Below are positions 16,741-36,822 of a stretch of DNA of 44,605 nucleotides, in pieces. Every line of letters starts with the position of its first letter. Position 1 is the first letter of the stretch. Source of the DNA: Pseudomonadota bacterium (GTDB lineage Bacteria; Pseudomonadota; Gammaproteobacteria; Burkholderiales; Burkholderiaceae_C). The position numbers and the translations under genes were made by a program. The notes beneath the pieces are model-generated. The model saw only the letters and a list, made by a program, of their open reading frames with translations. It was not told the origin of the DNA and did no database searches. The stretch spans positions 1 through 44,605 of the forward strand of contig JAJZAQ010000021.1 in the NCBI GenBank assembly GCA_021799355.1, read 5' to 3'.

Positions 16741-17413
16741 CGCCCGGCTCCAGTGTGGCAAAGCCATAGCGCAGCCCGCCCAGTCGCGGCGGCGCGGTCC
16801 ACGGCGTGCAGCCGCTGACGTGGTGGGCCACCGGGTGCGAGAACGCCGGGCCATCGTAAACGAAGGTGTGGAACTCGCCATTTTCGCCGCAGGCATCGAC
16901 TCCGGGGGGCAGGCTGGCGACGAAGGCGGCGTCGAACTCGCGGCCGCAGAAGCGGTCGTCGAGCCAGCGGCTGTCGACGCAGACCACGCGGGCACGCCAG
17001 CCCTGGGCGAAAAAGGTGTCGACCAGCGCACGCCGGTCGCTGCCCCACAGCGGCAGACAGGCGCGCAATCCGGCGCGGGCGCAGACCCGCTCTTCCCAGT
17101 CGCGGTGCGGCTGCAGGTCGATGTCGCCGAACACCGCGACCTGCGCTCCGCGCGCGGCCAGCGCCTGCAATTGCGCGACGAACACGGCTTCGTAATCGTC
17201 CCAACTCGCCGCAGCCGTCACCAGCTCGATGCCCAGCGCATCGGCCTGGGCCTGCACCAGCGCCAGCGGTACGCCGTGGCTGCGCAGCCGCTGGCCGCTT
17301 TGTTCGAGCATGGCCAGCAGCCAGCGCACCTCCAGCCCGGCGGCGCGGGCGCGGTGCACGGCGAGCATCGAGTCCTTGCCGCCGCTGAACGAGGCCAGGG
17401 CGGGCTGGTTCAA
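16730..17413 (-). CDS. Dph6-like PP-loop ATPase (diphthine-ammonia ligase family)
   Basis: A 227-residue protein with the ATP-pyrophosphatase loop [15 protein letters not shown] at residues 8-22 and the family pattern [20 protein letters not shown] and [17 protein letters not shown]. In eukaryotes and archaea this family amidates diphthine, but bacteria lack diphthamide, so the bacterial role is unknown; ATP-dependent amidation is inferred. The start is taken as TTG 17413, overlapping the argB stop, because no ATG or GTG in frame keeps the PP-loop near the N-terminus. Coupled to argB upstream and HAD downstream. Confidence 0.8.
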
Positions 17414-18324
17414 TGCGAGCGGATCATGGTGCCAAACGCCTGTTCGGTCAAGACTTCGAGCAGGATGGCATGCGGGATGCGGCCGTCGACGATGTGCACG
17501 GTGTTCACCCCCGACTTGGCCGCCTCCAGCGCGGAGGAAATCTTCGGCAGCATGCCGCCGGAGATGGTGCCGTCGGCGAACATGGCGTCGATTTCGCTGG
17601 CCGTCAGATCGGTGAGCAGTTCGCCCTTTTTGTTGAGCACGCCGGGGGTGTTGGTCAGCAGCAGCAGCTTTTCCGCGCGCAGCACTTCGGCGAGCTTGCC
17701 GGCGACGACGTCGGCGTTGATGTTGAACGCGGCGTTGTCTTCGCCAAAGCCGATGGGAGAAATCACCGGAATGAACTGGTCGTCCTGCAGCGCCTTGACC
17801 ACCGAGGGGTCGATGGCGACGACTTCCCCCACCTGGCCGACGTCGATCTCGGCGTCGGGGTTGTCGCGGTCGCGCATGCGCAGCTTGCGGGCGCGGATCA
17901 GCCCGCCGTCGCGTCCGGTCAGGCCGACTGCCTTGCCGCCGGCGTGGTTGATCAGGCCGACGATGTCCTGCTGCACCTGCCCGGCCAGCACCCACTCGAC
18001 CACTTCCATGGTCTCGGCGTCGGTCACGCGCATGCCCTGGATGAAGGTGCCTTTTTTGCCGATGCGGCCCAGCGCCTCGTCGATTTGCGGGCCACCGCCA
18101 TGCACCACCACCGGGTTCATGCCGACGAGCTTGAGCAGCACCACGTCTTCGGCGAAGTCCTGTTGCAGCTCGGGGTCGGTCATGGCGTTGCCGCCATATT
18201 TGATGACCAGGGTTTTACCGTGGAATTTGCGGATGTAGGGCAGGGCCTGGGCGAGGATCTCGGCCTGCTCGCGCGGGGCGATGTGCGACAGATCGGGAGG
18301 GGAGAGGGGAGTGTGGGCGCTCAT
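17410..18324 (-). CDS. argB: Acetylglutamate kinase
   Basis: A 304-residue amino-acid kinase that phosphorylates N-acetylglutamate in arginine synthesis. Seen: [71 protein letters not shown] and [17 protein letters not shown]. Start is set at ATG 18324 (MSAHTPL); another ATG at 18354 is in frame. A TTGACG at 18374-18379 (minus strand) may be its -35. The Tn7-like left end lies 199 bases upstream of the start, on the 5' side of argB, so this promoter remains on the chromosomal side. Confidence 0.95.
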
Positions 18325-18522
18325 GGGATGGGCAGGCGTGCGGGGTAAAAACAAAAGCGGTGGTGTTGCGCTGCGTCAATTCTAGGCAAACGCTGAAGAT
18401 CAATCGCTGCGCGGGCGGACTGCGGCGTTGCGCGCTGCCCGCCTGCGCGGCGATCTCATGGACATGCCGCGCATCCAGTGCGGCGTGCGCCGGGCCGCCC
18501 GCGGGTCACGGGCCGGCGGTGC
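18325..18522. other. argB upstream region up to the transposon end
   Basis: No gene is supported. It contains a possible argB promoter (TTGACG at 18374-18379). The five bases beside the transposon tip, GGTGC (18518-18522), would be the target duplication if the element still has both copies. Confidence 0.5.
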
Positions 18523-18680
18523 TGTGCGCGGGGAATAGAGTCGCTTACCGCGCACGCACTAGGGCCTTGATTTTTCGTCGTCGCATGTTGCCGCCGCGCG
18601 GCCTGTCGCCAACTGCCGCAGCTCAGTCATGCTCTGGGGCACACGCCCCAGAGCATTCGCGCAAACAAAGTCGCTTACCA
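18523..18680 (+). repeat. Tn7-like left end with two TnsB-type binding motifs
   Basis: The tip TGTGCGCGGGGAATAG followed by AGTCGCTTACC (18539-18549) aligns without gaps to the Tn7 tip (TGTGGGCGGACAATAA followed by AGTCTTAAACT) at about two thirds of positions. The same 11-mer AGTCGCTTACC recurs at 18669-18679, again preceded by an A-rich stretch (CAAACAA). Tn7 ends carry several such TnsB sites. A third copy was not found with confidence. Confidence 0.75.
18629..18656. repeat. Perfect 12-bp stem hairpin inside the left end
   Basis: ATGCTCTGGGGC, loop ACAC, then GCCCCAGAGCAT. It lies between the two TnsB-type motifs and downstream of the copABI operon. No U-tract follows on either strand, so it is not a classical terminator. 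Confidence 0.85.
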
Positions 18681-18823
18681 GCGTCTGGACCGGTCGGGGG
18701 TGGGCTTGCTGCAGCGTGGCCATCGGCGAGTGCGAAGATGACTCAGCGTCCGTGGATACGTTCCTGGATCGCCTGATGAAGTGAGCCATCGCGCACATCT
18801 CCCGGCCGTCGGGTCCGCCCGAC

Positions 18824-19402
18824 TCAGTCGACGATGAAGCGTCCGACCATGCCCCGCTGCATGTGTCCGGGCATGGTGCAGGCGAAGGGCACCGTGCCGG
18901 GCCGTCCGAAGCGCCAGATCAACTCGCCTTGGCCCTGCGGCGCCACGGCCACCATGTTGGGCTCCTTCCCGTTGGGCATGTCGGGCATCGCGGCCATCAT
19001 CTTCGCGTGCTCCTCGAGCTCGGACTGGATGCCGATGGTGAGTTCATGGCGCGTCCTGCCCTGGTTGACGACGACGATGCGCACCGTCTCGCCCTGCTTG
19101 ACGTGCACCACGTCAGGTGTGAAGCGCATCTGGTCGTCGGCCAGGATGCGGATCGTCTGGCTCACGGCGGAAGCCGTGCCCGGTCCGCCCACGCTCGCCG
19201 GGTTGCCGGGGTCCGCGGGTGTCGGCATCGTCCGCCCCTGAGGCATCGAGGCCATGCCCGGCATGGATGCCATTCCCGGCATCGAGCCCATGCCCGGCAT
19301 CGAGGCCATCGGCGTCGGGGCGGGTGCGGACCAGGCGCTCGCGCAGAGACCGCCAAGGGCCAGGGTCGCCAGAACAGTCTTGATCTTGAACATGCAGTGC
19401 AT
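18824..19402 (-). CDS. copI: CopI-like periplasmic cupredoxin
   Basis: A 192-residue precursor with a signal peptide (MFKIKTVLATLALGGLCASAW), then a Met-rich tract with SMPGM repeats (about residues 35-55) and a C-terminal plastocyanin-like domain. Type 1 copper ligands are visible: His in TRHELTIG and Cys-His-Met in FACTMPGHMQRGMVG. CopI proteins protect against periplasmic Cu(I) in betaproteobacteria. Start is ATG 19402 or 19393; both keep the signal peptide. Last gene of copABI, 23 bases after copB, and the cargo gene nearest the left end. Confidence 0.85.
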   Translation of the reverse strand: MHCMFKIKTVLATLALGGLCASAWSAPAPTPMASMPGMGSMPGMASMPGMASMPQGRTMPTPADPGNPASVGGPGTASAVSQTIRILADDQMRFTPDVVHVKQGETVRIVVVNQGRTRHELTIGIQSELEEHAKMMAAMPDMPNGKEPNMVAVAPQGQGELIWRFGRPGTVPFACTMPGHMQRGMVGRFIVD

Positions 19403-19425
19403 CCAGAAGGTGGGTTGAAGAAACA

Positions 19426-20568
19426 TCAGAACCAGAAATGCACACCGGCAACCACGTCGGTGGTGTCGCGGCGCTCGCCCGCCGCCTGGGCGAAGTCACC
19501 GGTGCGCCCGAAGCGTCCGCTCCACTCCACGCCGATGTAGGGCGAGAACTGACGCGAGATGTCGTAGCGCAGGCGTAGGCCGGCGGTGGCATCGGACAGG
19601 CCGCTGCCGATGCCGCGCGCCGGATCGTCCTTGCCGTAGGCGTTGAGCTCGACCTGCGGTTGCAGCACCACGCGCTGGGTCAGCAGCAATTCGTAGCTGG
19701 CGCTCAGGCGCAAGGCACTGCGCCCCTGGTCGCCCAGGTAGCCGGTGGCCTCGACGTTGAACCAGTACGGCGCCAGGCCTTGCACTCCGAAGGCCAGCCA
19801 GTTGCGGTCGGGGCCGCCGCCGTTGTCGTGGCGCACGCCGAGCTGCGAGTCCCAATAGGCCGCGATGGCGTGGCCCCACAGCAGTTCGGTGCGCGCATCC
19901 TGCAGGCGCCCCTGCGAGACCTGCCCCTCGGCCTTGAGCACCGCGCGGTTGAAATCGCGCCCGTACCAGGCCTGCACGTCGTAGGTGGTCCAGTTGCCCG
20001 AATCGTGGCTGTAGGCGCGCTCCAGACGGTCCACCAGCACGGAGCCGAAACTCTCCTGGTCCGCCAGGCGCGGCGGCTTCACGCCGGCCGGGATGTACGG
20101 GCCCGTCGTCAGCGTGTAGCCGCCCGAATCGGCATTCGCCGTACGAGGGCCCGTGGCTGCGGCGGCCGAAGCCGGTCCCGCAGGCATCGACATGCCCGGC
20201 ATATTCATTCCGGGCATGGCCTTCGCCGACGCGGGCGCACCGGCCGGGGCGCCGGAGCCGGCCGGCGCCTGCTTCGCGGGCATGTCCATGCCCTGCATGC
20301 CCTGCATGCCTGCCATGGACCTCGCAGCTGCCGAAGCGGCGGCAGCGGGTGCCGCCGGGCTGGCTGCGGGCATCGACATGCCCGGCATGCTCATGCCGGC
20401 CATGGAAGCGCCCGGGGCAGACGCGGGCCTGGCCGGCTTCGCGGCGGCGGGGCTGGCCGACATGGCCATGCCCTGCATGTCCATCGCATGCGCCGACACC
20501 GGAATCGCGGCCCCGATGGCGGCCGCAAGGATGCTGGCATGGATCGTCGTGTGGATCGTCTTGTGCAT
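19426..20568 (-). CDS. copB: CopB outer-membrane copper-resistance protein
   Basis: A 380-residue precursor: signal peptide, then a long Met/Ala/Pro-rich region (about residues 28-140) with repeated GMSMPGM-like motifs, then a C-terminal beta-barrel domain typical of CopB (YDVQAWYGRDFNRAVLKAEG, AYWDSQLGVRHD, NWLAFGVQGLAPYWF, VEWSGRFGRTGDFA, terminal aromatic HFWF). It exports or binds copper at the outer membrane. Start ATG 20568 follows GAGGAAACGAAC. Lies 10 bases after copA. The Met-rich domain is longer than in many homologues. Confidence 0.92.
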   Translation of the reverse strand: MHKTIHTTIHASILAAAIGAAIPVSAHAMDMQGMAMSASPAAAKPARPASAPGASMAGMSMPGMSMPAASPAAPAAAASAAARSMAGMQGMQGMDMPAKQAPAGSGAPAGAPASAKAMPGMNMPGMSMPAGPASAAAATGPRTANADSGGYTLTTGPYIPAGVKPPRLADQESFGSVLVDRLERAYSHDSGNWTTYDVQAWYGRDFNRAVLKAEGQVSQGRLQDARTELLWGHAIAAYWDSQLGVRHDNGGGPDRNWLAFGVQGLAPYWFNVEATGYLGDQGRSALRLSASYELLLTQRVVLQPQVELNAYGKDDPARGIGSGLSDATAGLRLRYDISRQFSPYIGVEWSGRFGRTGDFAQAAGERRDTTDVVAGVHFWF

Positions 20569-20578
20569 GTTCGTTTCC

Positions 20579-22309
20579 TCAGGCCACCAGGATCTCGCGG
20601 AACATGCCCGCATCCATGTGCATCATCAGATGGCAGTGCCAGGCCCAGCGCCCCACGGCGTCGGCGCTGACTCGGTAGCTGATCTGCTGCGCCGGCTGCA
20701 CCGGTACCGTGTGCTTGCGCACCAGGAAGTGCCCGTTCGGGTCCTCGACCTCGCTCCACATGCCGTGCATGTGCATCGGGTGGGTCATCATGGTGTCGTT
20801 GACCAGCGTGACGCGCAGGCGCTCGCCGTGGTGGAACAGGATCGGCGCGGAGTCGCCGAAGGTCACCCCGTCGATGGACCAGACGTAGCGCTCCATGTTG
20901 CCGGTGAGGTGGAACTCCAGCGCGCGCCCCGGCTCGCGCGCATCGAGCGGGCCGCCCACGGTGTGCAGGTCCGCCAGCGTGAGCACGCGCCGTCCGTTGC
21001 CGCGCAGCCCCACGCCGGGGTCGTCGAGGTTGGTGCGCGGATGGTCGACGCGGGCGTCCACGCCGGGACCGTACTCGCTGGGTGCGTGGCGCACCGCAGG
21101 CGAGGAACCCATGTCCATGCCCGGCATGGAACCCATGCCCGCCATGCCGGACATCGACGACATACCCATGTCCAGCATGGTCAGGTTCTGGCGCGGGTCC
21201 ATCGGCGGCACCGGCGCGCTCAGGCCCGGGCGCGCCGCCAGCGTACCGCGCGCGTAGCCGGTGCGGTCCATGCTTTGCGCGAAGATCGTATATGCATCGT
21301 CGGTAGGGCGCACCAGCACGTCGTAGGTCTCGCCGGGACCGAAGCGGAACTCGTCGACCGTCACCGGCTCGACGTCCTGCCCGTCGGTAGACACCACGGT
21401 GAGCTTCAGGCCCGGGATGCGCACGTCGTAGAAGGTGTCGCCGGCGCCGTTGATGAAGCGCAGGCGCGCCACCTTGCCGGGATGCACGCGTGCCGTCCAG
21501 TTGCCGGCCGGCGTGGTGCCGTTGGCCAGGTAGGTCAGCGTGGCCCCCGACAGGTCGGACAGGTCGCCCCAGCTCATGCGCATCTGCTGCCACATGGCGC
21601 GCTTGTCCAGCGCCGCGCGCAGGCCATTGCGCTTGACGTCCTCGAAGAAATCCACCGCCGTGGGTTCGTGGTAGTTGTCGAAACCGCTGTCGGCCTTGAG
21701 CTTGGCCAGCACGCGCATGGGGTCTTCGTCCATCCAGTCGGACAGCAGCACGACGTGGTCGCTGTCGGCCTGCACCGTGTGGCCGTGGGCGGGATCGATG
21801 ACGATCGCGCCGTACAGCCCGGTCTGCTCCTGCATGCCGGCGTGCGAGTGGTACCAGAAGGTTCCCGACTGCTGGACCTTGAACCGGTAGACGAAGGTCT
21901 GTCCGGGAGCGATGCCGGCGAAGCTCAAGCCCGGCACGCCGTCCATCTGGTAGGGCACGAGCATGCCGTGCCAATGGATCGCCGTCATGCGCGACATGCG
22001 GTTGGTGACGCGAATGGTCACCGTGTCGCCTTCGCGCCAGCGCAGCGTGGGCCCCGGCAGCGAGCCGTTGACGGTGGTGGCCATGCGCGCACGCCCGGTG
22101 AAGTTCACCGGGGTCTCGGCGATCACCAGGTCGAATTCGGTGCCGCGAAGCTCCGGGGCGCTGCCCGTGTGCGTGGCCGCAGGCCGGCCCTGGGCCTGCG
22201 CGGCCAACGTGGGCAGGCCGAGCAGCACGCCGCCGGCAGCCAGGCCCTGGACGAAGCGGCGCCGGGCGATTCCAGCCCCACGGAGCGCATCTGGGAATGA
22301 GCGTTGCAT
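20579..22309 (-). CDS. copA: CopA periplasmic multicopper oxidase
   Basis: A 576-residue multicopper oxidase exported by Tat (IARRRFVQGLAAGGVLLGLP). Copper motifs: IHWHGMLVP, FWYHSHAGMQ, HPMHMHGMW and, at the C-terminus, WAWHCHLMMHMDAGM. A Met-rich loop, MGMSSMSGMAGMGSMPGMDM (about residues 368-387), resembles the copper-binding repeats of CopA from plasmid-borne resistance systems. It oxidises Cu(I) and binds extra copper. Start 22309 follows GAGGA. First gene of copABI; a 26-bp CopR-type element lies 120 bp upstream. Confidence 0.96.
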   Translation of the reverse strand: MQRSFPDALRGAGIARRRFVQGLAAGGVLLGLPTLAAQAQGRPAATHTGSAPELRGTEFDLVIAETPVNFTGRARMATTVNGSLPGPTLRWREGDTVTIRVTNRMSRMTAIHWHGMLVPYQMDGVPGLSFAGIAPGQTFVYRFKVQQSGTFWYHSHAGMQEQTGLYGAIVIDPAHGHTVQADSDHVVLLSDWMDEDPMRVLAKLKADSGFDNYHEPTAVDFFEDVKRNGLRAALDKRAMWQQMRMSWGDLSDLSGATLTYLANGTTPAGNWTARVHPGKVARLRFINGAGDTFYDVRIPGLKLTVVSTDGQDVEPVTVDEFRFGPGETYDVLVRPTDDAYTIFAQSMDRTGYARGTLAARPGLSAPVPPMDPRQNLTMLDMGMSSMSGMAGMGSMPGMDMGSSPAVRHAPSEYGPGVDARVDHPRTNLDDPGVGLRGNGRRVLTLADLHTVGGPLDAREPGRALEFHLTGNMERYVWSIDGVTFGDSAPILFHHGERLRVTLVNDTMMTHPMHMHGMWSEVEDPNGHFLVRKHTVPVQPAQQISYRVSADAVGRWAWHCHLMMHMDAGMFREILVA

Positions 22310-22428
22310 GGATTCCTCGATTTTTGAAGGAATTCGCCGCGCGGCAAGGTCGTGCCACGCGGACCGTTGTGGAGCGGACGCTGTCCGCCCCGAGCAACGC
22401 ATGCTAGAAACGCCATACTTTCCGGAGC

Positions 22429-22486: not shown

Positions 22487-24070
22487 TCAACTCGACGGAG
22501 GTCTTGCGACGACGATCGCCGGCGGCAGGCACAAGCCCGAATCCTTGCAGGCTTGCACCCGCACCCGCACCTGCACAGCGCGGAAGTCGGTCAGCCCCGG
22601 CAGGTCGATCCTTGTCCCGTTCTCGTAGACCAGGATGGTTTGCCCTTCGATGCGCATGCCGATGTTCTGGCCCGGCGGATAGCGCGGAGTGATCGGCAGC
22701 GCACGCCCCGCACGAAAGACGGTCACGCTGGCCGGGATCAGGTACGGCGTAGAGGGCGGGTTGGAATACACGTGCCATCCTCGCGCGATGTCGAGCGTCA
22801 CCAGCGCCCCGGCCGGCGTCGAGGTCACGCGGGCGCCCACCTCGTCCGCCGAGTCGCGCGGTGCGCCGGCGTAGGTGGACGCGATCGAGGTGGGCAGTTC
22901 GTGCAGGCGGCCGATCAACGCGCCGCTGGTGAACAGGCCGGAGAAATGGCCTACCTCCCGGCCCCGGCTGTCGAGCACCGCCAGGAACGGCAGCCCTGCT
23001 CCGCCATAACGCGTGAGCAGTTGCTGCAACGCGGGGTCCGGATGGGTCAGGTCGGCCTGAAACGCGACCGCGCCGGATTCACGCACCGCCTTCAACACCG
23101 CGGGGTCGCGGTAGACCGTGCGTTCCATGACCCGGCAGTTCAGGCACCATGCCGCGGTGAACTCGACCAGCGCCGGCCGGTGCAGCGCGGAGATCTGCGC
23201 CACGGCGTCGGCGCGAAGCGGTTGCCACGGCATGCCCTGCCCCGCCACGGGCCAGACTCCGGAGCCGAAGTAGGCGAGCACCAGCGCCGGCACCGCCGCG
23301 AGCGCCGCCGCCCACCGGCTGCGCCGGTCGCGGGTACGCGTCGCGACGAACAGGACCCACACCGCCAGCGCGGCGAGCCAGAGCAGCCACAGCGCATTGC
23401 CCAGCCATCCCGGCAGCAGGCTTTGCACGAAGAACAGCGCGGCCGCGAGCAGCAGCCAGCCGAAGCTGTGCCGAACCACCTCGGTCCATGCACCGGCCCG
23501 CGGCAGGCGCTGCAACCAGGAAGGGCGAAGCAGCAGCAGCACGTACGGCAGGGCCATGCCCAGGCCGATGGCCACGAACAGGGTGACGATGTCGAGCGTG
23601 GGCCGGGTCAGCGCGAACACCAGTACACCGCCCAGCAGCGGTCCGGTGCACGGAGTCGACAGGATGCCCCCGGCCATGCCCGATGCGAAGGGCTCGAAAT
23701 AGCGCGTGCCTCCCAGCTGTGCCAGCCCGCCGGGGATCGGTAGCGAGCGCCCGCTGAAACTGGCCGCCGCGAGCAGGACAAGCATCAGCACCAGCCCCGC
23801 CAGCACCCAGCGTGACTGGAACAGCACGCCCCATTGCAGGTGCGCGAGCGCGGTGAGCAGCCCGAGAGCTGCGAAAAACGAAACCGAACCCAGGGTGAAC
23901 AAGACCGCCGACAGGGCCCGCGAACCGGCCGCGTCGCCCGCCTCGCGCAGGATGGTGCGCACCTTGATGGGAACCGCCGGAAGCACGCACGGCGTAAGGT
24001 TGAGCAGCGCGCCGGCGGCCATCGCGAGCCAGGCCTCGATCCAGAAAGTGGAGTTCATCATCGTGTTCAC
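22487..24070 (-). CDS. Permuted DsbD-type thiol:disulfide interchange protein
   Basis: A 527-residue protein with domains in the order beta-gamma-alpha rather than alpha-beta-gamma. Residues 1-270 form the DsbD membrane domain with the paired cysteines C28 (LTPCVLPAVP) and C141 (STPCTGPLLG). Residues 285-395 form a thioredoxin domain with the active site AAWCLNCRVM (C309, C312). Residues 410-520 resemble the DsbD N-terminal domain (GWHVYSNPP; the C-x5-C pair ACKDSGLCLPP, C508 and C514). DsbD carries electrons from cytosolic thioredoxin to periplasmic thiol proteins. All six cysteines are kept. Overlaps the tlpA-like gene by four bases; last gene of the long operon. Confidence 0.88.
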   Translation of the reverse strand: MNTMMNSTFWIEAWLAMAAGALLNLTPCVLPAVPIKVRTILREAGDAAGSRALSAVLFTLGSVSFFAALGLLTALAHLQWGVLFQSRWVLAGLVLMLVLLAAASFSGRSLPIPGGLAQLGGTRYFEPFASGMAGGILSTPCTGPLLGGVLVFALTRPTLDIVTLFVAIGLGMALPYVLLLLRPSWLQRLPRAGAWTEVVRHSFGWLLLAAALFFVQSLLPGWLGNALWLLWLAALAVWVLFVATRTRDRRSRWAAALAAVPALVLAYFGSGVWPVAGQGMPWQPLRADAVAQISALHRPALVEFTAAWCLNCRVMERTVYRDPAVLKAVRESGAVAFQADLTHPDPALQQLLTRYGGAGLPFLAVLDSRGREVGHFSGLFTSGALIGRLHELPTSIASTYAGAPRDSADEVGARVTSTPAGALVTLDIARGWHVYSNPPSTPYLIPASVTVFRAGRALPITPRYPPGQNIGMRIEGQTILVYENGTRIDLPGLTDFRAVQVRVRVQACKDSGLCLPPAIVVARPPSS

Positions 24071-24576
24071 GCCGGGCGCGCCAGTTCGTCGCGGATCAGG
24101 GCATCCAGTGTGCCGAAATCCGGACGGCCGAGAATGCGCTTGACCACGTGGCCCCGCTTATCCACCAGGAAGGTCGTGGGAGTCATGCGTACGTCGTAGA
24201 ACGCCTTCGCCACCTGACCGCTTTTGTCCAATGCGACCTGGAACGGCAGATGCCTCGTGCGGCTGTAGTCTGCCACGTAGCCGGCGGGGTCGTAGCTCAT
24301 CGCCACGGCAATGAATTCGAACTCCTTGCCGCGAAAGCGTTGGTAGGTCTGGATCATCTGCGGCATCTCCGCGATGCACGTGGCGCAGCTCGTGGCCCAG
24401 AAATCCACCACGTAGACCTTGCCGCGCAGTTGGCGCGTACTCAGCGTACGCCCCGAAAGCAGCGAGAACGTCGCGCGCGGGGCACGCGGGCTGTCGGTCA
24501 GGAAGAAGTAGGACGCTGCCGCAGCCATGGCCACCACCATGGCGCCGGCAGCCGCCCAGCGAATTGGGATACGCAT
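24067..24576 (-). CDS. TlpA/ResA-like membrane-anchored thioredoxin
   Basis: A 169-residue protein with an N-terminal anchor (residues 8-26) and a thioredoxin domain with active site FWATSCATCIAEMP (C64, C67) and cis-Pro region MTPTTFLVDKRG. Such proteins reduce periplasmic disulfides using electrons from DsbD. The start ATG 24576 follows GAGGCG and gives a clean anchor. It overlaps the permuted DsbD gene (ATGA), which suggests they work as a pair keeping copper-oxidised thiols reduced. Confidence 0.9.
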   Translation of the reverse strand: MRIPIRWAAAGAMVVAMAAAASYFFLTDSPRAPRATFSLLSGRTLSTRQLRGKVYVVDFWATSCATCIAEMPQMIQTYQRFRGKEFEFIAVAMSYDPAGYVADYSRTRHLPFQVALDKSGQVAKAFYDVRMTPTTFLVDKRGHVVKRILGRPDFGTLDALIRDELARPA

Positions 24577-24693
24577 GGAAACGCCTCTATCGGTTGTCGT
24601 CCGGGAGCCAGCGGGTGCGGAACCCGCGGAGTCCCCGGTCATCGGCAATCGGATGGGCACGAGGGCCCAACACCGTGTTCGGGAAACGCCGCT

Positions 24694-25077
24694 TCAGGCC
24701 CTGGGGGGACGGTAGAGTGTGTCGATGCGCACCGCCGGCAGCCAACGTACCGCCCGCGGGCGCAAGCTCCCGCGCCGCCTTGGGAAGAGCAGAGCCATCG
24801 GGGCGGGCGCGGCGGCCAGCGTGAGGGCGCCGGTTACATGGCACGCGTGCTGCGCCACGCCATGCGCGGCGGCCATCGAAGCGTGAGGGCCCACGCGGGT
24901 GATGGCCTGGAACCGCACAGGCTGCGCGGTGCGTGGCGCGAACACCGCCGCACCCCGCACGACGCTCGCCCGCGGACAGGCATGTCCGGCCGGGGCAGCC
25001 CCCGCGAGCGCGCCGCCGCCGCTCGTCGACACGGCGACGAGCACGAGCGCCAGCAGGAAGTCACGCAGCAGCTTCAT
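24694..25077 (-). CDS. Small secreted protein of unknown function
   Basis: A 127-residue precursor with a signal peptide (MKLLRDFLLALVLVAVSTSGGG). The mature part is rich in Ala, Arg and Pro and holds two cysteines (GHACPRAS and QHACHVTG) and several histidines; it ends VRIDTLYRPPRA. The C-terminal R-x-D-x-L-Y-R-P-P pattern recalls small proteins found beside metal-resistance genes, but I cannot name the family. It sits 76 bases after the channel gene and 117 bases before the tlpA-like gene. Confidence 0.6.
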   Translation of the reverse strand: MKLLRDFLLALVLVAVSTSGGGALAGAAPAGHACPRASVVRGAAVFAPRTAQPVRFQAITRVGPHASMAAAHGVAQHACHVTGALTLAAAPAPMALLFPRRRGSLRPRAVRWLPAVRIDTLYRPPRA

Positions 25078-25153
25078 GGGATCTAGGCGAGCGACAATCG
25101 CATTCTATCCAGGCCCGGCGCGGCAACGAAAGCCCCGTGACACCGTTGCACGG

Positions 25154-26011
25154 TTACACCTTGGAATCGTCGTGCACGGAGTGCAGCCCCTTGGGGCCGG
25201 ACCCGTCGGGTCGCCGGCTGCTCATCTCGATACGCCATTGGCGCAGTTCATCGCGCACGGCCTCCACCTCGCAATGCAGGGCGTGCCGGGCGCGTTTTTC
25301 CGCCTGGCCGACAAAAAGCGCCGCGATTCCGCCGGTGATCAGCGAAAACACGGCGTACCCGACCACCACGTCGAGCGCGGCCAGGACCTTGGCAGCCGCG
25401 CTGGTCGGCACGATGTCGCCATAGCCCACGGTGGCCGCCGTCGTGAATGCCAGCCATACGCCTTGTCCATAGCTGTGCACGGTGGGTTCGATGCGATAAA
25501 AGCCCGCTGCCGCCAGCAGCACCGCGCCGGCACCCAGCAGCGAGGCAAAGGGGATCACGCTTCGCGAGAATGCGGCGCGCACATGTCCGAGCAGCCAGGC
25601 GAACACGAGGGCGACGTAGATCAGGTGCAGCAGGTGCGCGAACGCCATCGCATGAACCCTCGCGCCCCACAGCACCAGGCCCGAGGATGCGACGATGAGC
25701 AGCTTGAGCCAGTTTGCCCGCAGGTACCGCTCGGATTTGCGACACAGGGCCACCATCCATGCCATCTCGATCGCGAAAGCGGCGAGTATGAAGCCATCGA
25801 TGCGAGGCCCCCAGAGCGCAAGGGCGGCGCTGCGCTGAAGGTCTTCCAGGTAGAACGAGACCATGGCCAGCAAGGCGATGCCGGCCATCCACGGGGCCGT
25901 CGCGCGTCCCAGCGCGCGCACTGCCCTGCTTTCCCCGGCAGGCACCTTGTTGAAGCCGATCCACGAGCGCCGGGCCTTCACGATATCCGAGGGCAAGCTA
26001 TGCCACCTCAC
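25154..26011 (-). CDS. Two-pore-helix potassium-channel-like protein
   Basis: A 285-residue protein with about six membrane helices and the K+ selectivity filter TTAATVGYGDIVPTSAAAK near the C-terminal third, followed by a last helix (VVGYAVFSLITGGIAALFV) and a charged tail. The layout matches voltage-gated-like bacterial channels without an obvious S4 arginine ladder. Start GTG 26011 overlaps the DUF3141 stop by 14 bases, so it is translated with that gene. A K+ channel inside a copper operon is unusual; it might offset charge movement during stress, which is only a guess. Confidence 0.82.
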   Translation of the reverse strand: MRWHSLPSDIVKARRSWIGFNKVPAGESRAVRALGRATAPWMAGIALLAMVSFYLEDLQRSAALALWGPRIDGFILAAFAIEMAWMVALCRKSERYLRANWLKLLIVASSGLVLWGARVHAMAFAHLLHLIYVALVFAWLLGHVRAAFSRSVIPFASLLGAGAVLLAAAGFYRIEPTVHSYGQGVWLAFTTAATVGYGDIVPTSAAAKVLAALDVVVGYAVFSLITGGIAALFVGQAEKRARHALHCEVEAVRDELRQWRIEMSSRRPDGSGPKGLHSVHDDSKV

Positions 26012-27881
26012 CGTGCTCGCCGTTGCGGCGGGTGCGCCTCGCCGGTGCCGCGGCCTTGGCCGCGGTGGCGCTGGCCGGCGTTCCGGTCGGGGCGAACAAC
26101 GCCGCGAAGCTGCGCTCCTGGAGCGTGTCCCGGGCCACGCGCCATGTCCGGATCACCTCGCTGACCTGCCTCATCGCCGCGCGTTCGGCGCTCAGCCAGG
26201 GATGCTCGGGCGCAAGTGCCTTGCGCTGCTGGCGAAGTTCCCGCGCCCACGGCTCGAGCCAGGCCATCCATGGCAGGAATCGCGCGGACAGCCCGTAGCG
26301 ACTCGTGCGCATCGGATGCAGACGTTGCATCAGTTCACTGCTCCAGGGGTTGGCCAGGGCGCGTACCCAGGGACTGAAGCATTCGCGATACAGGGTTTCA
26401 TGGAATTCGGACCACGCACGCACCTGCCGGAATTCGTCCGGCGCTCCAGAAAACTTCAGGTCGGAAACCTCACGCGGCTCGAAGTGCACGGAATAGGACG
26501 GTCGGCGCGCATCCGCATCGCCCGAGGGGTTGTCGATACGCATCTCGTACAGGCCCGGCTCCAGCTCCTCGACCTGCTTCAGGCTCTCCAGAATGGCGCG
26601 ATGCTCCAGGCGCGCGACTTGGGCGGAGACGAAGATCCCCAGGTGGCCGACATGCGGGTTGGTCAGGTAGACGATGCGCTGGCCGGCGGCCTTGAGCTCG
26701 GCCGTGTTCCTGTACACCGCGGCGATCCATCCCAGCGCCTGGTGCGGCGGCGTGATGTTGTCCCCCCATGAAGCGAAGATGACCAGCGGGTTGCGCACCT
26801 GGCGCAGATCCGCGTAGCAGCATTCGCACACGCGGAAGGTGCCCTGCTCGACGCGGTCGCCTATGAACAGGTTTTCGACGATGGCCAGGATCTCCTCCCG
26901 GCTGAGCAGGTAGAAGCCGCTCCACCAGCGTTCGAATTGCAGGAAGCGGTCTCGCTCGGCATCCACGTCGGTGAAGAGTCCGGCATACTTGTCCCAGACG
27001 GCTTCGGGTTTGAGGTTCTCGAAGTTGGCGACCAGCCAGGCCCCGTCGAAGCGCCCATCCCCGAGGTCGGCCAGCCAGTGCACCAGCCAGGCGCCGCCCG
27101 TGAAGCCCGCGGCCGTGCGCATGGGGTTGATTCCTGGCTCGCCGGCCCAGTACGACAGCGGGGAGCCGTTGAGCACCGCCGGTCCGCTCAGGCCCTGGCA
27201 GTCGGCCGCCAGCAGCGCGACGGCCCATCCGGCCTGGCAATTGCCGTACAGCACCGGCTGCTTGCCCGGATGCCGCGCCGCGACATGTTCGACAAAGCGC
27301 CGCAGCGCGTGCAGCACGTCCGCCAGGGTCTGTCCCGCGCATGGTTCGGGAAAGAACGTCACGAAGTACACGGGATGGCCCTCGCGCATGGCCATGCCGA
27401 TCTCCGAATCGCGCTTGAAGCCGCCAATTCCTGGGCCATGCCCGGCTCGCGGATCGAGCACGATCACGGGGGGCCTGTTCGCAGCGTCGACGCACTCCTC
27501 GCAGCGCGAATCGCCGATGCGCGTGATGCGCAGCAGGGCGTAGTTGACCGGCCGATCGAAATGCCGGGCATCGAGCAGGGTCTCGTAGTCGAAGTCCAGC
27601 AGCGGCGGCTTGCCCGCGCGCTCATGCTCGATCATGTCGTCGGCGCGCTGGCGCAGCGTGTCCCAGAACAACACCCAGCGCTCGCACACATCGCGGGCGT
27701 AGTCGAGGGTATCGGCAGCGGACGGCACACGCCCGACGGGAGCCGTGCGCGCAGGGACTGCGGACACCGCGGGTGGCGTGCGCACCGTGCGCGCACCGAG
27801 CGCGGAACCCGTGGCGGCCATGTCGGTCCGGGCAGCGGACGCCGTCCGGCGGGATGTCGTGGATCGAGTGGTGTGGGGCAT
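25998..27881 (-). CDS. DUF3141 (PHA-synthase-like alpha/beta hydrolase) protein
   Basis: A 627-residue protein of the DUF3141 family, related to the PhaC alpha/beta hydrolases. Seen: PVIVLDPRAGHGPGIGGFKRD (about 139-159), FFPEPCAGQTLADV, the nucleophile-elbow-like GNCQAGWAVALLAAD in which Cys takes the nucleophile place as in PHA synthases, and NPHVGHLGIFVSAQV with the likely catalytic His. The C-terminal 80 residues are helical and basic. Function is unproven; a role in poly-3-hydroxyalkanoate or other ester metabolism is inferred. It lies 16 bases after the DUF5676 gene and overlaps the channel gene. Confidence 0.82.
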   Translation of the reverse strand: MPHTTRSTTSRRTASAARTDMAATGSALGARTVRTPPAVSAVPARTAPVGRVPSAADTLDYARDVCERWVLFWDTLRQRADDMIEHERAGKPPLLDFDYETLLDARHFDRPVNYALLRITRIGDSRCEECVDAANRPPVIVLDPRAGHGPGIGGFKRDSEIGMAMREGHPVYFVTFFPEPCAGQTLADVLHALRRFVEHVAARHPGKQPVLYGNCQAGWAVALLAADCQGLSGPAVLNGSPLSYWAGEPGINPMRTAAGFTGGAWLVHWLADLGDGRFDGAWLVANFENLKPEAVWDKYAGLFTDVDAERDRFLQFERWWSGFYLLSREEILAIVENLFIGDRVEQGTFRVCECCYADLRQVRNPLVIFASWGDNITPPHQALGWIAAVYRNTAELKAAGQRIVYLTNPHVGHLGIFVSAQVARLEHRAILESLKQVEELEPGLYEMRIDNPSGDADARRPSYSVHFEPREVSDLKFSGAPDEFRQVRAWSEFHETLYRECFSPWVRALANPWSSELMQRLHPMRTSRYGLSARFLPWMAWLEPWARELRQQRKALAPEHPWLSAERAAMRQVSEVIRTWRVARDTLQERSFAALFAPTGTPASATAAKAAAPARRTRRNGEHGEVA

Positions 27882-27897
27882 GACGAGGCGGCCGGCT

Positions 27898-28326
27898 TCA
27901 ACCAGCCATGGCGGACGAGAAGTAGTTGTACAAGGGCCCGAAGATCAGCGCGACGTACCAGCCGTAGGCCACGCTCTCGAGTACCCCAAGCAGGAAGCTG
28001 CCCCAGCTGAGCCAGGTGAAGCCCGGCAGCAGCGGCATCCACACCTTGGCCATGGCCTGCGCGGGAAACAACAGGTCGAAGCCCACACAGGCCACGAAGG
28101 TCAACGCCAGGAACAGCCCGAGGCTCATGCCCAGTGCGACCACGGGCAGGCGTGCGGGCCGCGAAACACGGGCCGGGACGCTCAGGCCTGCTTCACCGGG
28201 TGGGGCCGCCGGCATGTCGGGCGGCTGACGCTTGGGACTGCGGCCCATCACGTGGGCGCCGCAGCCGAAGCGCATGAGCAGCACGAAGAATCCTGCGACC
28301 AGCAAGTAATAGAGCCACGAAGCCAT
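27898..28326 (-). CDS. DUF5676-like small membrane protein with extra N-terminal helix
   Basis: A 142-residue protein in two parts: an N-terminal helix, MASWLYYLLVAGFFVLLMRF, followed by a GCGAHVMG segment, and a C-terminal two-helix domain (LGLFLALTFVACVGFDLL, then WLSWGSFLLGVLESVAYGWY ending PLYNYF) that matches the DUF5676 pattern as I recall it. Both parts are usually found as separate small proteins near heavy-metal genes, so this may be a fusion. Start ATG 28326 follows AAAGGAG. Role unknown. Confidence 0.65.
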   Translation of the reverse strand: MASWLYYLLVAGFFVLLMRFGCGAHVMGRSPKRQPPDMPAAPPGEAGLSVPARVSRPARLPVVALGMSLGLFLALTFVACVGFDLLFPAQAMAKVWMPLLPGFTWLSWGSFLLGVLESVAYGWYVALIFGPLYNYFSSAMAG

Positions 28327-28342
28327 GATCAACGCACTCCTT

Positions 28343-29620
28343 TCACGAAGCCTCGACGCGCGCAGGCGTGCGCGGTCTCCAGTACAGCCAAGCGCCCGCG
28401 GATCCGCCCAGCAGCAAGATCGCGGCCGCGACGAACGGCGCTTCGGGACGCAAGGTGAACAGCCCACCCGAGACGAAGGCACCCAGCGCCTGCCCCAGGT
28501 TGCCCGCAGCGGCCAGGCGGCCGAGCTTGACGCCCTTGGCCCCGGGGTCATGGTCCAGCAAGGCGTAGGCCAGCGAAGGCGCGACCAGGCCGATGCTCAG
28601 CGCGACCGCCGCGACCGTCATGCCCAGCGAAAGCATGCTCGGCATGCGTGGCGCCGCCAGCATGAAGCCCGCGCCGACCGCCAACACGGCGGCCATCCAG
28701 CGACGCTCGAAGCGTTCGCGCAGCGGGCCCCAGGCGAGCAGCCCCTGGGCTACCAGCATGAAGCCGCTGCACGCGACGAACAACAAGGCGACGGCTCCGA
28801 CGGCTGCTCCCAGGCGCATCGCGCCAAGCAGGTTGAAGCCGGTCTCGAAGCTGCCGACGGCATAGGCGGCGAGGCCTGCCAGGATCATGCTGGTCCATGC
28901 GAAACGCCGGTCGCGCACGGCCGACGTGGTGCCCGCCTCCTCGATGGCCTGCGGCCCCGGCGCGCGCAGGCTCCACGCCAGCAGGGGCAGGAGCACGACC
29001 CCCAGCACGGCCACGACCGCCAGGGGCAGTTTCACCATCCAGGGCATGGCCTGCGTGCTCATGCCCATCACCGGCCCGGCCAACCATGTTCCGACCAACG
29101 GGCCGGTGACGAAGCCGATGAAGCTGGCGCTGGCCAGCAGGGCGAATCGGCGATTGCGCGCCGGGCGGTCGCTGACGTCGGCCAGATAGGCCTGCGCCGC
29201 CGGGATCACCGCGGCGGCACCCACGCCCGACAGGATTCGGGCCGTGTAGGCCTGCGCCAGGCTCGCGGCCAGGGCGGAGCCGAACATGCCGGCGAGGTAG
29301 ACGGCGAATCCGCCCATCAGTACCAGGCGCCGACCGTGGCGATCCGAAAGTCGCCCCCACCACGCCGCGCTGGCGAACAAGGCCAGGGTATAGGCTCCGC
29401 TGAGCAGCCCCACGTTACCTGCGATCTCGGTCGTGCTTCCCGGCGCGACGTAGCTGCGCAGATAGAGGGGCAGCAGGGGCATCCACGCGCTATATCCGAG
29501 CGCCTGCACGAAAGCGGCGGCCAACAGCACGGCCAGGGCCATGCGGCTCACGCTGTGGCCGCTGGCTCGCCGGATGTCGCCCCGGGAAGCGGCGCCTGCA
29601 CGGAAGCTGGGGTTTCTCAT
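28343..29620 (-). CDS. Major facilitator superfamily transporter
   Basis: A 425-residue carrier with about 12 membrane helices. The loop between helices 2 and 3 carries the MFS signature AAWWGRLSDRHGRRLVLMGG; later ARILSGVGAAAVIPAAQAYL and PARNRRFALLASASFIGFVTGPLVG fit the drug-proton antiporter (TetA-like) group. Start ATG 29620 lies 7 bases after the YHS gene stop. Substrate unknown; efflux of copper complexes or a siderophore-like chelator is possible but not shown. Confidence 0.85.
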   Translation of the reverse strand: MRNPSFRAGAASRGDIRRASGHSVSRMALAVLLAAAFVQALGYSAWMPLLPLYLRSYVAPGSTTEIAGNVGLLSGAYTLALFASAAWWGRLSDRHGRRLVLMGGFAVYLAGMFGSALAASLAQAYTARILSGVGAAAVIPAAQAYLADVSDRPARNRRFALLASASFIGFVTGPLVGTWLAGPVMGMSTQAMPWMVKLPLAVVAVLGVVLLPLLAWSLRAPGPQAIEEAGTTSAVRDRRFAWTSMILAGLAAYAVGSFETGFNLLGAMRLGAAVGAVALLFVACSGFMLVAQGLLAWGPLRERFERRWMAAVLAVGAGFMLAAPRMPSMLSLGMTVAAVALSIGLVAPSLAYALLDHDPGAKGVKLGRLAAAGNLGQALGAFVSGGLFTLRPEAPFVAAAILLLGGSAGAWLYWRPRTPARVEAS

Positions 29621-30453: not shown

Positions 30454-32121
30454 TCAGAGCACCGTGAACTGCCCCATCATTCCGTTGCCCTCGTGCTCGA
30501 GGATGTGGCAGTGGTACATGTAGGGATGCGCCTCGTCGGCCCGCTGCGTGAAACGCATGGCCAGGCGCACCGTCTCGCCGCCGCGCACGAGCACCGTGTC
30601 CTTGCGGCCGCGCTCCCACTCGGGCGGGCTCGCGCCATCGCGCGACAACACCTGGTACGACACGCCATGCACATGGATCGGGTGCGCCATGTGGGCCTCG
30701 TTGCGCAGTTCCCAGATCTCCACGTCGCCCAGTCGAACGCGCTGGTCGATCCGGTTCATTTGCATGAATTGATCGTTGATCGAAAACAGGTTCTGGCCGC
30801 CCACGCCGAGGCTCATGCCGCCCGGGCCCGAATCGATCGGGGCGCCGCGGTCCACGTTACGCGGCCCACCCATCATCGAGCCCATGCGCATGCCCTGGAG
30901 CGTGAAGCGCCGAACCCTGGCCGCCGCGACGGCAAGCGGATCGATCTCGGCCAGCTTCGCGGGAACGCCGGATTTCGCCCCGCTGGGCGCGCCGACGCGT
31001 AGCTGCAACAAGTCGATGGTGCTCTGGTCCCAGGCGTCGGAGTCCATCGGCGAACCAGTGAGGGCATCGACCACCTCGGCGGAGCGGCTCTGCAGCACCA
31101 GTTGCCTGCCCTGATCTCCGGACAGATCGACGACGATCTCGGCCCGCTCACCCGGCGCGAGAAGCAGGCGCCGGGTCGCCGCGGGACGAGCCAGCAGTCC
31201 GGCATCGGAGGCGACGACCTGGAAAGCTCGTCCGTCGTCGAAGGCGAAGTTGTAGATGCGGGCGTTGGAGCCGTTGAGCAGACGCAGGCGGACGTGTTGC
31301 GCCGGCACCGCGACATAGGGCTGCTCACACCCGTTGACCAGGAAGCGATCGCCCTTCATACCCATCAGGTCGTGCATGCTGGTCATGTAGAGCAGCGTGC
31401 CGTCGGCCGCGATGCGGCGATCCTGGACGATCACCGGGATGTCGTCGACTCCCCACGTATGCGGCAGCCCGAGGCGGCGATCCACACCGTCATCGACCAG
31501 CAAGAGCCCGGCCAAGCCCGAATATGCCTGCGCACCGGTGCGCGTATCGGGGTGGGGATGAAACCACAAGGTCGCGCCAGGTTGGTCGAGCGTGAAACCG
31601 ACCCGCTGCGTCCCTCCCGCCTGTATCGGACTGTGCGGGCCTCCGTCGGCGGCCCCCGGCACGATGGCGCCATGCCAATGCAAGGTCGTCGACTGCGCAA
31701 GCCCATTGCGCACCTCCACGCGCACCGGCTGTGCGCGAGGAACGACCAAGGCGGGACCGAGCATGGAGCCGTTGTAACCCCAGGTCGGAGTCCGCACCCC
31801 GGCAACCAGTTCGCTGACGCCCGCCTGTGCGCTCAACGCAAAGTGCAGCACGCCGTCGCGCCTGTCACCGCGCAGTTGCGGCGGATTCGGAAGGGATAGC
31901 TGAAAAGGCCGAGCAGGAAGCAGTGCGGCGCCTGCCTGCGCGTTCATCATGGGGCCCATCCGACCCAGCCCTTGCGAAGCTGCGGCGCGCATAAGCAGCG
32001 CTGGAGCCACCAGCATGCCCGATGCAAGCACCAGCCCGCGGCGCCTTGCATCGACAGTGCCAGTCCTCGGGGGCAGAACGCTCGCGCTGCTCGCGAGACG
32101 CGACGTATTCCAGGATTTCAT
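30454..32121 (-). CDS. CueO-like multicopper oxidase
   Basis: A 555-residue three-cupredoxin-domain oxidase with an RRR-containing Tat-like leader (ARRRGLVLASGMLVAPALL). Copper motifs: TTLHWHGAIV, LWFHPHPD, HPIHVHGVSY and MYHCHILEHEGNGMMG near the C-terminus. A stretch MRMGSMMGG (about 410-418) may be a methionine-rich substrate site. It oxidises periplasmic Cu(I). It differs clearly from CopA at 20579-22309, so the island has two oxidases of different subfamilies. Separate transcription unit with its own CopR-type box. Confidence 0.93.
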   Translation of the reverse strand: MKSWNTSRLASSASVLPPRTGTVDARRRGLVLASGMLVAPALLMRAAASQGLGRMGPMMNAQAGAALLPARPFQLSLPNPPQLRGDRRDGVLHFALSAQAGVSELVAGVRTPTWGYNGSMLGPALVVPRAQPVRVEVRNGLAQSTTLHWHGAIVPGAADGGPHSPIQAGGTQRVGFTLDQPGATLWFHPHPDTRTGAQAYSGLAGLLLVDDGVDRRLGLPHTWGVDDIPVIVQDRRIAADGTLLYMTSMHDLMGMKGDRFLVNGCEQPYVAVPAQHVRLRLLNGSNARIYNFAFDDGRAFQVVASDAGLLARPAATRRLLLAPGERAEIVVDLSGDQGRQLVLQSRSAEVVDALTGSPMDSDAWDQSTIDLLQLRVGAPSGAKSGVPAKLAEIDPLAVAAARVRRFTLQGMRMGSMMGGPRNVDRGAPIDSGPGGMSLGVGGQNLFSINDQFMQMNRIDQRVRLGDVEIWELRNEAHMAHPIHVHGVSYQVLSRDGASPPEWERGRKDTVLVRGGETVRLAMRFTQRADEAHPYMYHCHILEHEGNGMMGQFTVL

Positions 32122-32226
32122 GGGACAACACCTTTGGGTGAGAGACTTGGATCGCGTCGGTCATGAAGCGCGCCATGCGCGCATCCGACCTACGAAACGA
32201 GCCTATGCCTCCGGTGCTGTCGACTC

Positions 32227-32252
32227 GATGACGGCTGCGTGAGATTGCTGTC
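32227..32252 (-). promoter_or_regulatory. CopR-type box ahead of the multicopper oxidase
   Basis: Minus strand: TGAC-AGCAAT-CTCA (one mismatch in the second half-site), then GTCAT exactly 11 bases on. It lies 105 bases from the oxidase start. Same architecture as the copA element. Confidence 0.65.
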
Positions 32253-32353
32253 ATCTTCAGGCCGCGTCGGCGCATCACCTGCCGCGGCTGCGATTCAACG
32301 CGTCCCCCACAGGGCCGCGCCGTCGTCAGGCCGACCAAACTCGCCCGAGCGAC

Positions 32354-32749
32354 TCAGCCGCGCAGCGACTCGGCCACGCGCTGCAACCTCGAACGAACCT
32401 CCCTACCCAGGTTCTCGATTTCCGGCCGGGCGACCATGCCCAGCACCGCCTGCGGATCCATGAACACGACATGGACCGTTGCATCGGGTTCCTCCCGCAC
32501 GAGCACATTACAGGGAAGCAAGGCGCCGATGTCCGGGTCGGCCTGCAGGGCCTGGTGCGCGAAATGAGGGTTGCAGGCTCCGAGAATCAGGTACGGGCGC
32601 TGCTCCACGCCGAGCTTGGCCTTGAGCGTGGCCTGCACGTCGATCGTGGTCAGCACGCCGAAACCCTCCTGCTTGAGCGCGTCGGTGACGGCCTGCACGG
32701 TGGACTCGAAGCCCTTCGGGCTCTGGACGCTGAAAACGTAGGAACTCAT
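32354..32749 (-). CDS. DUF302 domain protein
   Basis: A 131-residue soluble protein with the DUF302 pattern: KGFESTVQAVTDALKQEGFGVLTTIDVQATLKAKL, then YLILGACNPHFAHQAL and LLPCNVLVRE. DUF302 proteins are common beside metal ATPases and related genes; the conserved Cys (GACNP and LPCNV) could bind metal. Function unknown. The start at 32749 follows AGGAGAGTGTC. It lies 62 bases after the Cu-ATPase stop and is probably cotranscribed with it. Confidence 0.88.
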   Translation of the reverse strand: MSSYVFSVQSPKGFESTVQAVTDALKQEGFGVLTTIDVQATLKAKLGVEQRPYLILGACNPHFAHQALQADPDIGALLPCNVLVREEPDATVHVVFMDPQAVLGMVARPEIENLGREVRSRLQRVAESLRG

Positions 32750-32811
32750 GACACTCTCCTCGTATGGGCCGGGATGGACGCATGCATGTTGCCGATTCGC
32801 CCCTCGCGGCC

Positions 32812-35184
<2,373 letters not shown>

Positions 35185-35483
35185 CGTGTTCCCTCCTGAT
35201 CGGGATCGCGTCGACCCTCGCGCATCCAGGCGGCGCGGGGTCCGCGATCGCAGGCTCGCCCGGAGCCTCGACTCCTTTGCTGACCATCTACAGTCTAGAC
35301 ATTCATTTCCATCGGGCACATGACCGCGCGATGACGATCCTGTCATGTTCGAGGGCCCGCGGCCTCGAGGCCGGCCTGACATGGATTTCCGCTGCTTCAA
35401 GTCAAAGATCATCCCGTCGATCACGGCTACGGTTTGCTGCGGCGAACCGACGCCGCACGCCACACCTATTCGAGAACCTGATC
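35185..35483. other. Divergent promoter region between Cu-ATPase and dsbA-like gene
   Basis: No gene is supported in these 299 bases. The only clear element is the CopR-type box at 35320-35345; it is placed to control either or both flanking genes. The dsbA-like gene has only a weak ribosome-binding site. Confidence 0.6.
35320..35345. promoter_or_regulatory. CopR-type box between Cu-ATPase and dsbA-like gene
   Basis: Plus strand ATGAC-GATCCT-GTCAT gives a perfect TGAC-N6-GTCA palindrome (35332-35345), and the third ATGAC sits at 35320-35324, 11 bases from the palindrome's ATGAC. It is 136 bases from the ATPase start and 138 from the dsbA-like start. Confidence 0.75.
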
Positions 35484-36152
35484 ATGAATGGACATCCGAT
35501 ACAACGCCTCCTCGCCCTGCTCACCATGCTTCTCGCGATCGCCGTGGGCGCCACGATCACGCAAGCCGCCGCCCCCTTCCAGAGGGGCACGGGCTACAAC
35601 GAGCTGTCCGCGCGCCAGCCGGTGGGGCACCCGGGCAAGGTCGTGGTCACGGAGTTCTTCTGGTACAACTGCCCGCACTGCAATGCACTCGAGCCCGAAC
35701 TCGACGCGTGGGTCCGCAGGCAGCCGGCCTACGTGGTGGTCGAACGCGTTCCAGTGGCCTTCACGGCGAAGTTCATCCCGCAGCAAAAGCTCTACTACAC
35801 GCTGCTCGCGCTGGGCAAGGTGGACAGCCTGCAGGGTGCCATCTTCCAGGCCATTCATGAACAGCACATCGCGCTGAACACTCCGGACCAGATGGCCACG
35901 TGGCTGGCCGCGCACGGCATCGCCAGGCAGACCTTCCTGGCGACCTTCAACTCCTTCGGCGTGGCCATGCAGGCCCGACGCGCCACGCAGATGATGAACG
36001 ACTATGGCATCGACGGCGTGCCGACCATGGCGGTGGAAGGCACCTACGAGGTCTCGGCCGACCTTCCGCAGACCCCGACCGACGAGCGCATCCTGCAAGC
36101 CGTCGATTACCTCGTGGGCCGAGTCCACGCGCAGCAGGCCAGCGCGAGGTAA
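35484..36152 (+). CDS. DsbA-like periplasmic thiol:disulfide oxidoreductase
   Basis: A 222-residue precursor: signal peptide (LLALLTMLLAIAVGATITQAAA), active site FFWYNCPHCNALEPEL (C63, C66, the CPHC typical of DsbA) and cis-Pro loop GVPTMAVEGTYEV. DsbA introduces disulfides into periplasmic proteins. Start ATG 35484; ribosome-binding site weak. The only plus-strand cargo gene besides copRS, divergent from the Cu-ATPase, and it may serve disulfide repair under copper stress together with the DsbD/TlpA pair. Confidence 0.9.
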   Translation: MNGHPIQRLLALLTMLLAIAVGATITQAAAPFQRGTGYNELSARQPVGHPGKVVVTEFFWYNCPHCNALEPELDAWVRRQPAYVVVERVPVAFTAKFIPQQKLYYTLLALGKVDSLQGAIFQAIHEQHIALNTPDQMATWLAAHGIARQTFLATFNSFGVAMQARRATQMMNDYGIDGVPTMAVEGTYEVSADLPQTPTDERILQAVDYLVGRVHAQQASAR

Positions 36153-36193
36153 CCGCGGCCGTCGGGCGGCCGGTGCCCCGGCGAGGGCACCGC

Positions 36194-36212
36194 GCAGCGG
36201 CTACGCCGCTGC
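36194..36212. terminator. Hairpin between convergent dsbA-like gene and small periplasmic gene
   Basis: GCAGCGGC-TAC-GCCGCTGC, a perfect 8-bp stem overlapping the last codons of the minus-strand gene. No U-tract, so termination is uncertain. Confidence 0.3.
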
Positions 36213-36662
36213 CGTGCGCGCCATGATCCAGTTGCCTGAAAAGCCCGTGACGGTAACTCTCTGCCCCGGTTCCAGGCAAGGATGCTGCATCATCGCGTGG
36301 GTATGAAGCACCAGGATGCGCATGCCGTTGTCGAGGTCGATCCCGTTGTGGCAATGGCTCAGGCCCCGAGCGTCGGGCGCGCAGTTCGTGTCGCTGGTCA
36401 CGGTCCCGCGCAGCGTCGCTCCGCGCGGCAGTTCGATGCCGCCGATGATCTGCAGCAGGGACAGGCCCCCTTGGCCATTGTCGGCCCAGCTTCGTATCGG
36501 CGCGCCGGCCGGAATGCGCGGTTCATCGGGCACCGCGAGCTGCGTGGCCCGGGCGTGGGACACCCAGAACAGCGCCCCGCCCACGACGCCGGCCAGAGCC
36601 AGCGTCGCGGCGACACGGCGTACCGAGACGAGGGAAAGGCTTCGTGAGGCTTGCATGGTCAT
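36201..36662 (-). CDS. Periplasmic His/Met/Cys-rich protein of unknown function
   Basis: A 153-residue protein with an N-terminal signal or anchor (VAATLALAGVVGGALFWVSHA, about residues 16-36). The second half contains likely metal ligands: CAPDARGLSHCHNGIDLDNG and HTHAMMQHPCLEPGQ, followed by RVTVTGFSGNWIM. I do not recognise a family. GGAG lies four bases before ATG 36662 and ten before ATG 36656, so the start is ambiguous. Preceded by its own CopR-type box and converging with the dsbA-like gene, which points to copper binding in the periplasm. Confidence 0.75.
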   Translation of the reverse strand: MTMQASRSLSLVSVRRVAATLALAGVVGGALFWVSHARATQLAVPDEPRIPAGAPIRSWADNGQGGLSLLQIIGGIELPRGATLRGTVTSDTNCAPDARGLSHCHNGIDLDNGMRILVLHTHAMMQHPCLEPGQRVTVTGFSGNWIMARTAAA

Positions 36663-36746
36663 CGATCTCCGGGCGAATGAGGGATGCGAACAGGCGCGCT
36701 GCGCCTGCGTTTCCAGACATGATCGCGCTCGGTTCCCGACACGCCG

Positions 36747-36772: not shown

Positions 36773-36822
36773 GATTCGCGCGGCACCTGCCGTACCGAGG
36801 CCGGGCAAGCCGCGTGCCGGCA

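Follow-up and report, generated by a model that had tools for sequence, protein, structure and literature searches.

The DNA stretch analysed here, the window, comprises 44,605 nucleotides and is the whole of contig C62; it is best explained by a Tn7-like element that has entered the attTn7 site of a Thiomonas genome, a short way downstream of glmS. The left end lies on this contig and the right end on another contig of the same assembly (C55), and the probability that these are the ends of one element at that site is put at about 0.86. The ends, their sites, the duplication between which the element lies, the order of genes and the position of glmS can be read in the nucleotide sequence itself, while the assignment of both ends to one element would follow from their orientation, the duplication and the synteny within the genus, the middle being unassembled. 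The absence of tnsA, tnsB and this middle from the assembly counts against one intact element. The genome and the relatives called same-genus below belong presumably to Thiomonas. With its copper cargo it is an ordinary attTn7 insertion, of a kind already known, and this member is new.

By analogy with Tn7, from which the binding, activity and mobility of the element would be deduced, TnsD bound at the 3' end of glmS would bring in TnsC, and the joining of the ends by TnsA together with TnsB, about 23 bp beyond the stop of glmS, would create the 5-bp duplication GGTGC. The right end, having four TnsB-type sites of which the innermost is weak, faces glmS; the left end, starting at 18523 and having two detectable sites, is distal and faces argB. 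Between the left end and the tns operon lies the cargo, in which copper-resistance genes abound. For a Thiomonas metal-resistance island the outer boundary is thereby fixed to the base, and attTn7 beside glmS is indicated as an island site in this genus. The locus is also a clean case in which a tip was read from the raw sequence and then confirmed by a predicted duplication on another contig.

Inverted tips and the pentamer GGTGC

The outermost base of the element is 18523, at which the left tip TGTGCGCGGGGAATAGAGTCGCTTACC begins; on inspection of the window, 18523-18549 reads TGTGCGCGGGGAATAG followed by AGTCGCTTACC, and this tip on the plus strand includes the outermost TnsB-type site (18533-18549). 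The pentamer GGTGC at 18518-18522 stands directly outside it. The glmS gene of the same genome (G000) occupies 1870-3702 of C55 on the minus strand, and outward from its stop follow 18 nt, a second GGTGC (1844-1848) and the inverted right tip at 1843, which is 23 bp past the stop. Both tips begin with TGT and are oppositely oriented, and the coincidence of one pentamer directly outside both has a chance of about 1 in 500 at this base composition. Behind the C55 tip there are three strong TnsB-type sites and a weak fourth (score 10.7), so that the arrays count four sites at the right end and two at the left. Thus, the duplication GGTGC predicted in the initial annotation, as well as the inverted tip with further AGTCGCTTACC-like sites to be sought there, were both found, side by side and on another contig of the same genome.

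The right ends were compared with those of outside relatives. One scan of the tnsC piece against the genome contigs gave three loci, L085 (97% identity), L086 (96%) and L087 (83%); L086 begins inside tnsC, and the comparison of right ends is that with L085 and L087 only. Both of these extend past tnsA to glmS and have TGTGCGCGGGAAATAAAGTCG shortly after glmS, with the distance from the right tip to the glmS stop being 25 bp in L085 and 24 bp in L087. Past the tip, each of them contains four sites, the first at 10 bp, with the spacings 19, 20 and 34 that are found also on C55. Differing arrays, with tips TGTTCC... and repeated AAAGTCGCAAACA or AAAGTCGAAAACG, are present past glmS in L090 (G005), L092 (G012) and L093 (G006), and resemble the right ends of further Tn7-type elements; apparent ends of this sort occur in three of the nine other same-genus glmS flanks. 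About 0.6 kb inward of the C55 right tip lies a Mutator-family insertion sequence, with its transposase gene at L099:1-1178, which runs off the contig end and, as a guess, may have caused the assembly break.

The main doubt concerns a tandem, of which C62 and C55 would hold the outer ends instead of the two ends of one element; at least two Tn7-like elements would then sit at attTn7, with the left end at argB owned by an older and the right end at glmS by a newer insertion. This doubt arises because each further insertion at a given site duplicates the same pentamer again, and GGTGC would stand at both outer ends anyway; the unassembled middle leaves room for such an arrangement, to which the apparent right ends of other Tn7-type elements at glmS in the genus also lend some weight. 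Between the two tips of this genome 20 of 27 positions are identical, which is below the agreement of the left tip with the tips of L085 (22) and L087 (23) and speaks for a tandem. However, the assembly yielded a single tnsC piece and a single tnsD, and an inner tip was found neither in the window nor in the first 8 kb of C55, the genome-wide search for it having been made with the 11-mer only. A tandem is, on this evidence, considered unlikely.

Neighbourhoods of argB and glmS in the genus

The distal neighbour outside the element is argB (17410-18324, minus strand; amino-acid kinase family by Pfam AA_kinase), whose start codon ends at 18324 and is separated from the tip by 198 bases. The argB locus was obtained from 11 of the 12 same-genus relatives searched, and in all 11 the similarity to the window past argB stops within 18326-18386, with CAATTCTAGG (18377-18386) kept in 10 of them. 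A comparison with relatives' argB loci had been proposed in the initial annotation as a check of the insertion, and it turned out accordingly: the sequence 18523-18700 occurs in none of the 11 loci, within a coverage of up to about 1.5 kb beyond argB. For the flank 18387-18522, other loci offered no convincing match, the best among the matches listed having an E value of 0.004 over 23 bases.

One gene, apparently the same, follows next after argB in 11/11 relatives and is assigned to DUF1345 by a Pfam match of one copy. No ortholog of it was found in this assembly, and neither was one of the 11.85-kb argB-glmS interval of G002, for which G000 gave 20 short matches of at most 91.5 bits, taken for paralogues; an old deletion or assembly gaps must therefore be assumed. 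In four relatives argB and glmS are located on one contig, at distances of 12.3 (G002), 14.0 (G008), 32.1 (G005) and 43.1 kb (G006), and their relative orientation in all four is the one implied by the join of C62 to C55.

From the window alone, where argB stands beside the left end and a fifth gene takes the tnsE position, it might be supposed that the element came to argB via a TnsE-type or other untargeted route and that glmS is irrelevant. This is strongly disfavoured, and very improbable in our estimation, by the C55 right tip of this genome, which has the same GGTGC and lies 23 bp from the stop of glmS, and by both relatives that reach the right end, which are also at glmS. The location by argB given in the initial annotation is right insofar as argB adjoins the tip, but argB is only the distal neighbour, and the target would be glmS with its attTn7.

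Terminal sites of the left end

The 11-mer AGTCGCTTACC is repeated exactly at 18669-18679, 130 bp further in, as had been noticed initially, and the copy falls into the second left-end TnsB-type site AAACAAAGTCGCTTACC (18663-18679, plus strand). For the ranking of such sites, a 17-base motif was derived from 11 right-end sites (four of L085, four of L087 and three of C55, the weak fourth C55 site being excluded), with the left end held out. Among about 89,000 window positions, 18663 scored the first (29.0) and 18533 the second (19.5), followed by a third position with 12.8. In the background of 444,090 bases of other loci, from which eight loci with known ends were excluded, one place reached 25.7 (L006:740) and the next 17.0; the score of the tip site is not unique alone, because L006:740 exceeds it. 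The outermost left site is offset from its tip by 10 bp, in the same way as at the right ends, and the left tip has 2 mismatches in 21 to the right tips of L085 and L087, the next-best place in the window having 7. The scan of 18523-18900 with the right-end motif gave no third site. The interval between the two left-end sites contains, at 18629-18656, an inverted repeat with perfect 12-bp arms and a 4-nt loop.

The tip and the repeat alone are weak evidence, since the loose 11-mer is near expectation and the alignment to Tn7 is tied. With up to two mismatches, the 11-mer has 10 sites in the window against 6.46 expected, a number reached in 11 of 100 shuffles, and with up to one mismatch it has 19 places genome-wide, fewer than the reversed control (41). 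The exact 11-mer is found at three places in the genome, one of them within an apparently unrelated gene on C89, and this copy was rejected as a transposon end for its position in a putative coding gene; the place C19:38, though near a contig end, lies in a putative 23S rRNA and was likewise rejected. The initial annotation had leaned on a gap-free match of about two thirds of positions with the left tip of Tn7; this match was reproduced (17/27), but it is equalled at window 43137, is by itself at chance level and proves nothing alone. That all this is a chance resemblance and no transposon end lies at 18523, as the tied alignment and the loose matches near or below controls might suggest, is of negligible probability, because the match to the relatives' tips, the site offset, the two top ranks of the held-out motif and the second GGTGC at the other end raise the site above chance and confirm the left end first proposed at this base.

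Transposition genes, cargo and related elements

The contig stops at 44605 inside tnsC, of which the C-terminal part is left (43671-44603, minus strand; relatives in L085-L087), and it is adjoined by tnsD (42017-43726, minus strand) with TniQ and TnsD domains and a match to Tn7 TnsD (1e-27). TnsD was found in 51 of 399 family genomes, with 38% identity for the best match outside this genome; for TnsC, 464 plasmid records were retrieved, every one below 60% identity. The missing genes can be followed in the relatives: the best match of L087 TnsB is the Tn7 TnsB structure (4e-80), that of the full-length L087 TnsC is the Tn7 TnsC structure (4.6e-74), and a TnsA domain was detected in L085 and L087. 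The tnsB frame of L085 has no Pfam match, and its DNA aligns to L087 at 75% across the region. Neither tnsA nor tnsB is present in this assembly, in which the L085 stretch spanning both was matched only at its tnsC end. The sole Mu-transpos_C (TnsB-family) match in the genome, on C19, was rejected as the TnsB of the element, being located in an apparent Mu-type phage with a MuB-like gene adjacent. This apparent phage (L023, C19:44000-63000) encodes MuA- and MuB-like genes.

The initial annotation had placed tnsC, tnsD and tnsE on the other side of the cargo, and the partial tnsC and tnsD are indeed there, but the "tnsE" is not established, having no family match. The fifth gene in that position (41137-42030, minus strand; 297 aa) overlaps the end of tnsD and is conserved in L085 and L086, with a C-terminal extension in the window copy relative to L085. 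It looks like a real gene by this conservation and by the pattern of changes relative to L085, which number 33, 16 and 89 at codon positions 1, 2 and 3. No match was found for it in Pfam, NCBIfam or PDB (the last searched with the L085 copy); its predicted structure was set aside for the mean pLDDT of 33.5. A 23% alignment was obtained to the first 244 residues of a 535-aa post-tnsD gene in L117, which is itself without a TnsE match, and by this alignment and by position only the fifth gene may be called TnsE-like. Among 398 genomes of the phylum it occurs in this one and one other, and in no plasmid record when queried with the L085 copy. Target selectors have been surveyed (PMC10293859); it is doubtful, though conceivable, that the fifth gene is a new short one. 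It would then correspond to the N-terminal half of a protein as long as TnsE, kept as a gene of its own and coupled behind tnsD, and the element would have a left end with two TnsB sites instead of three.

Insertion at attTn7 is described as taking place about 20 bp downstream of glmS with a 5-bp duplication (PMC2918618), and Tn7 as having three left and four right sites (PMC8649781). The element resembles Tn7 in the TGT start of the tips, the 5-bp duplication, the four right-end sites, the right end facing glmS at 23-25 bp past its stop, the tnsA-tnsB-tnsC-tnsD order, complete only in L085 and L087, and the cargo between the tnsE position and the left end. It differs in the site sequence, which is close to AAATAAAGTCGCT(G/T)AC(C/T), in the two left-end sites found instead of three, in the fifth gene unrecognisable as TnsE, and in the copper-rich cargo. 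Tn5468 of Acidithiobacillus ferrooxidans, likened here by its description, is a Tn7-like element with tnsABCDorf5, one copy of which is associated with glmSU (PMC2621215). Published work already covers attTn7 insertions of Tn7-like elements, their metal cargo and copper-carrying members among them (PMC2918618, PMC8649781, PMC6211086, PMC2621215, PMC3384475), and in the literature searched no paper was found that brings Thiomonas, Tn7 and glmS together.

The cargo was annotated by Pfam on selected reading frames. Inward from the left end, the minus strand encodes a cupredoxin-like gene, copB and a multicopper oxidase (18824-22402), then DsbD-like, ion channel, DUF3141, DUF5676 and MFS transporter genes (22487-29620), and a second multicopper oxidase, a DUF302 frame and a heavy-metal P-type ATPase (30454-35463), while the plus strand (35076-40993) carries a DsbA-like gene (35076-36152) and a CusR/CusS-type two-component pair (38863-40993). 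Copper genes are prominent among these, namely copB, the two multicopper oxidases, the cupredoxin-like gene, the P-type ATPase and the CusS-type pair. When 24,978 of the element's 26,083 bases in the window were searched against plasmids, pieces turned up in 144 records, none of which covered 80%. A Pseudomonas syringae element reportedly combines Tn7-like genes with copper-resistance cargo. The same combination is described for the enterobacterial pco/sil element, of which two chromosomal examples lie 300 kb from glmS (PMC6211086), as against 23 bp here.
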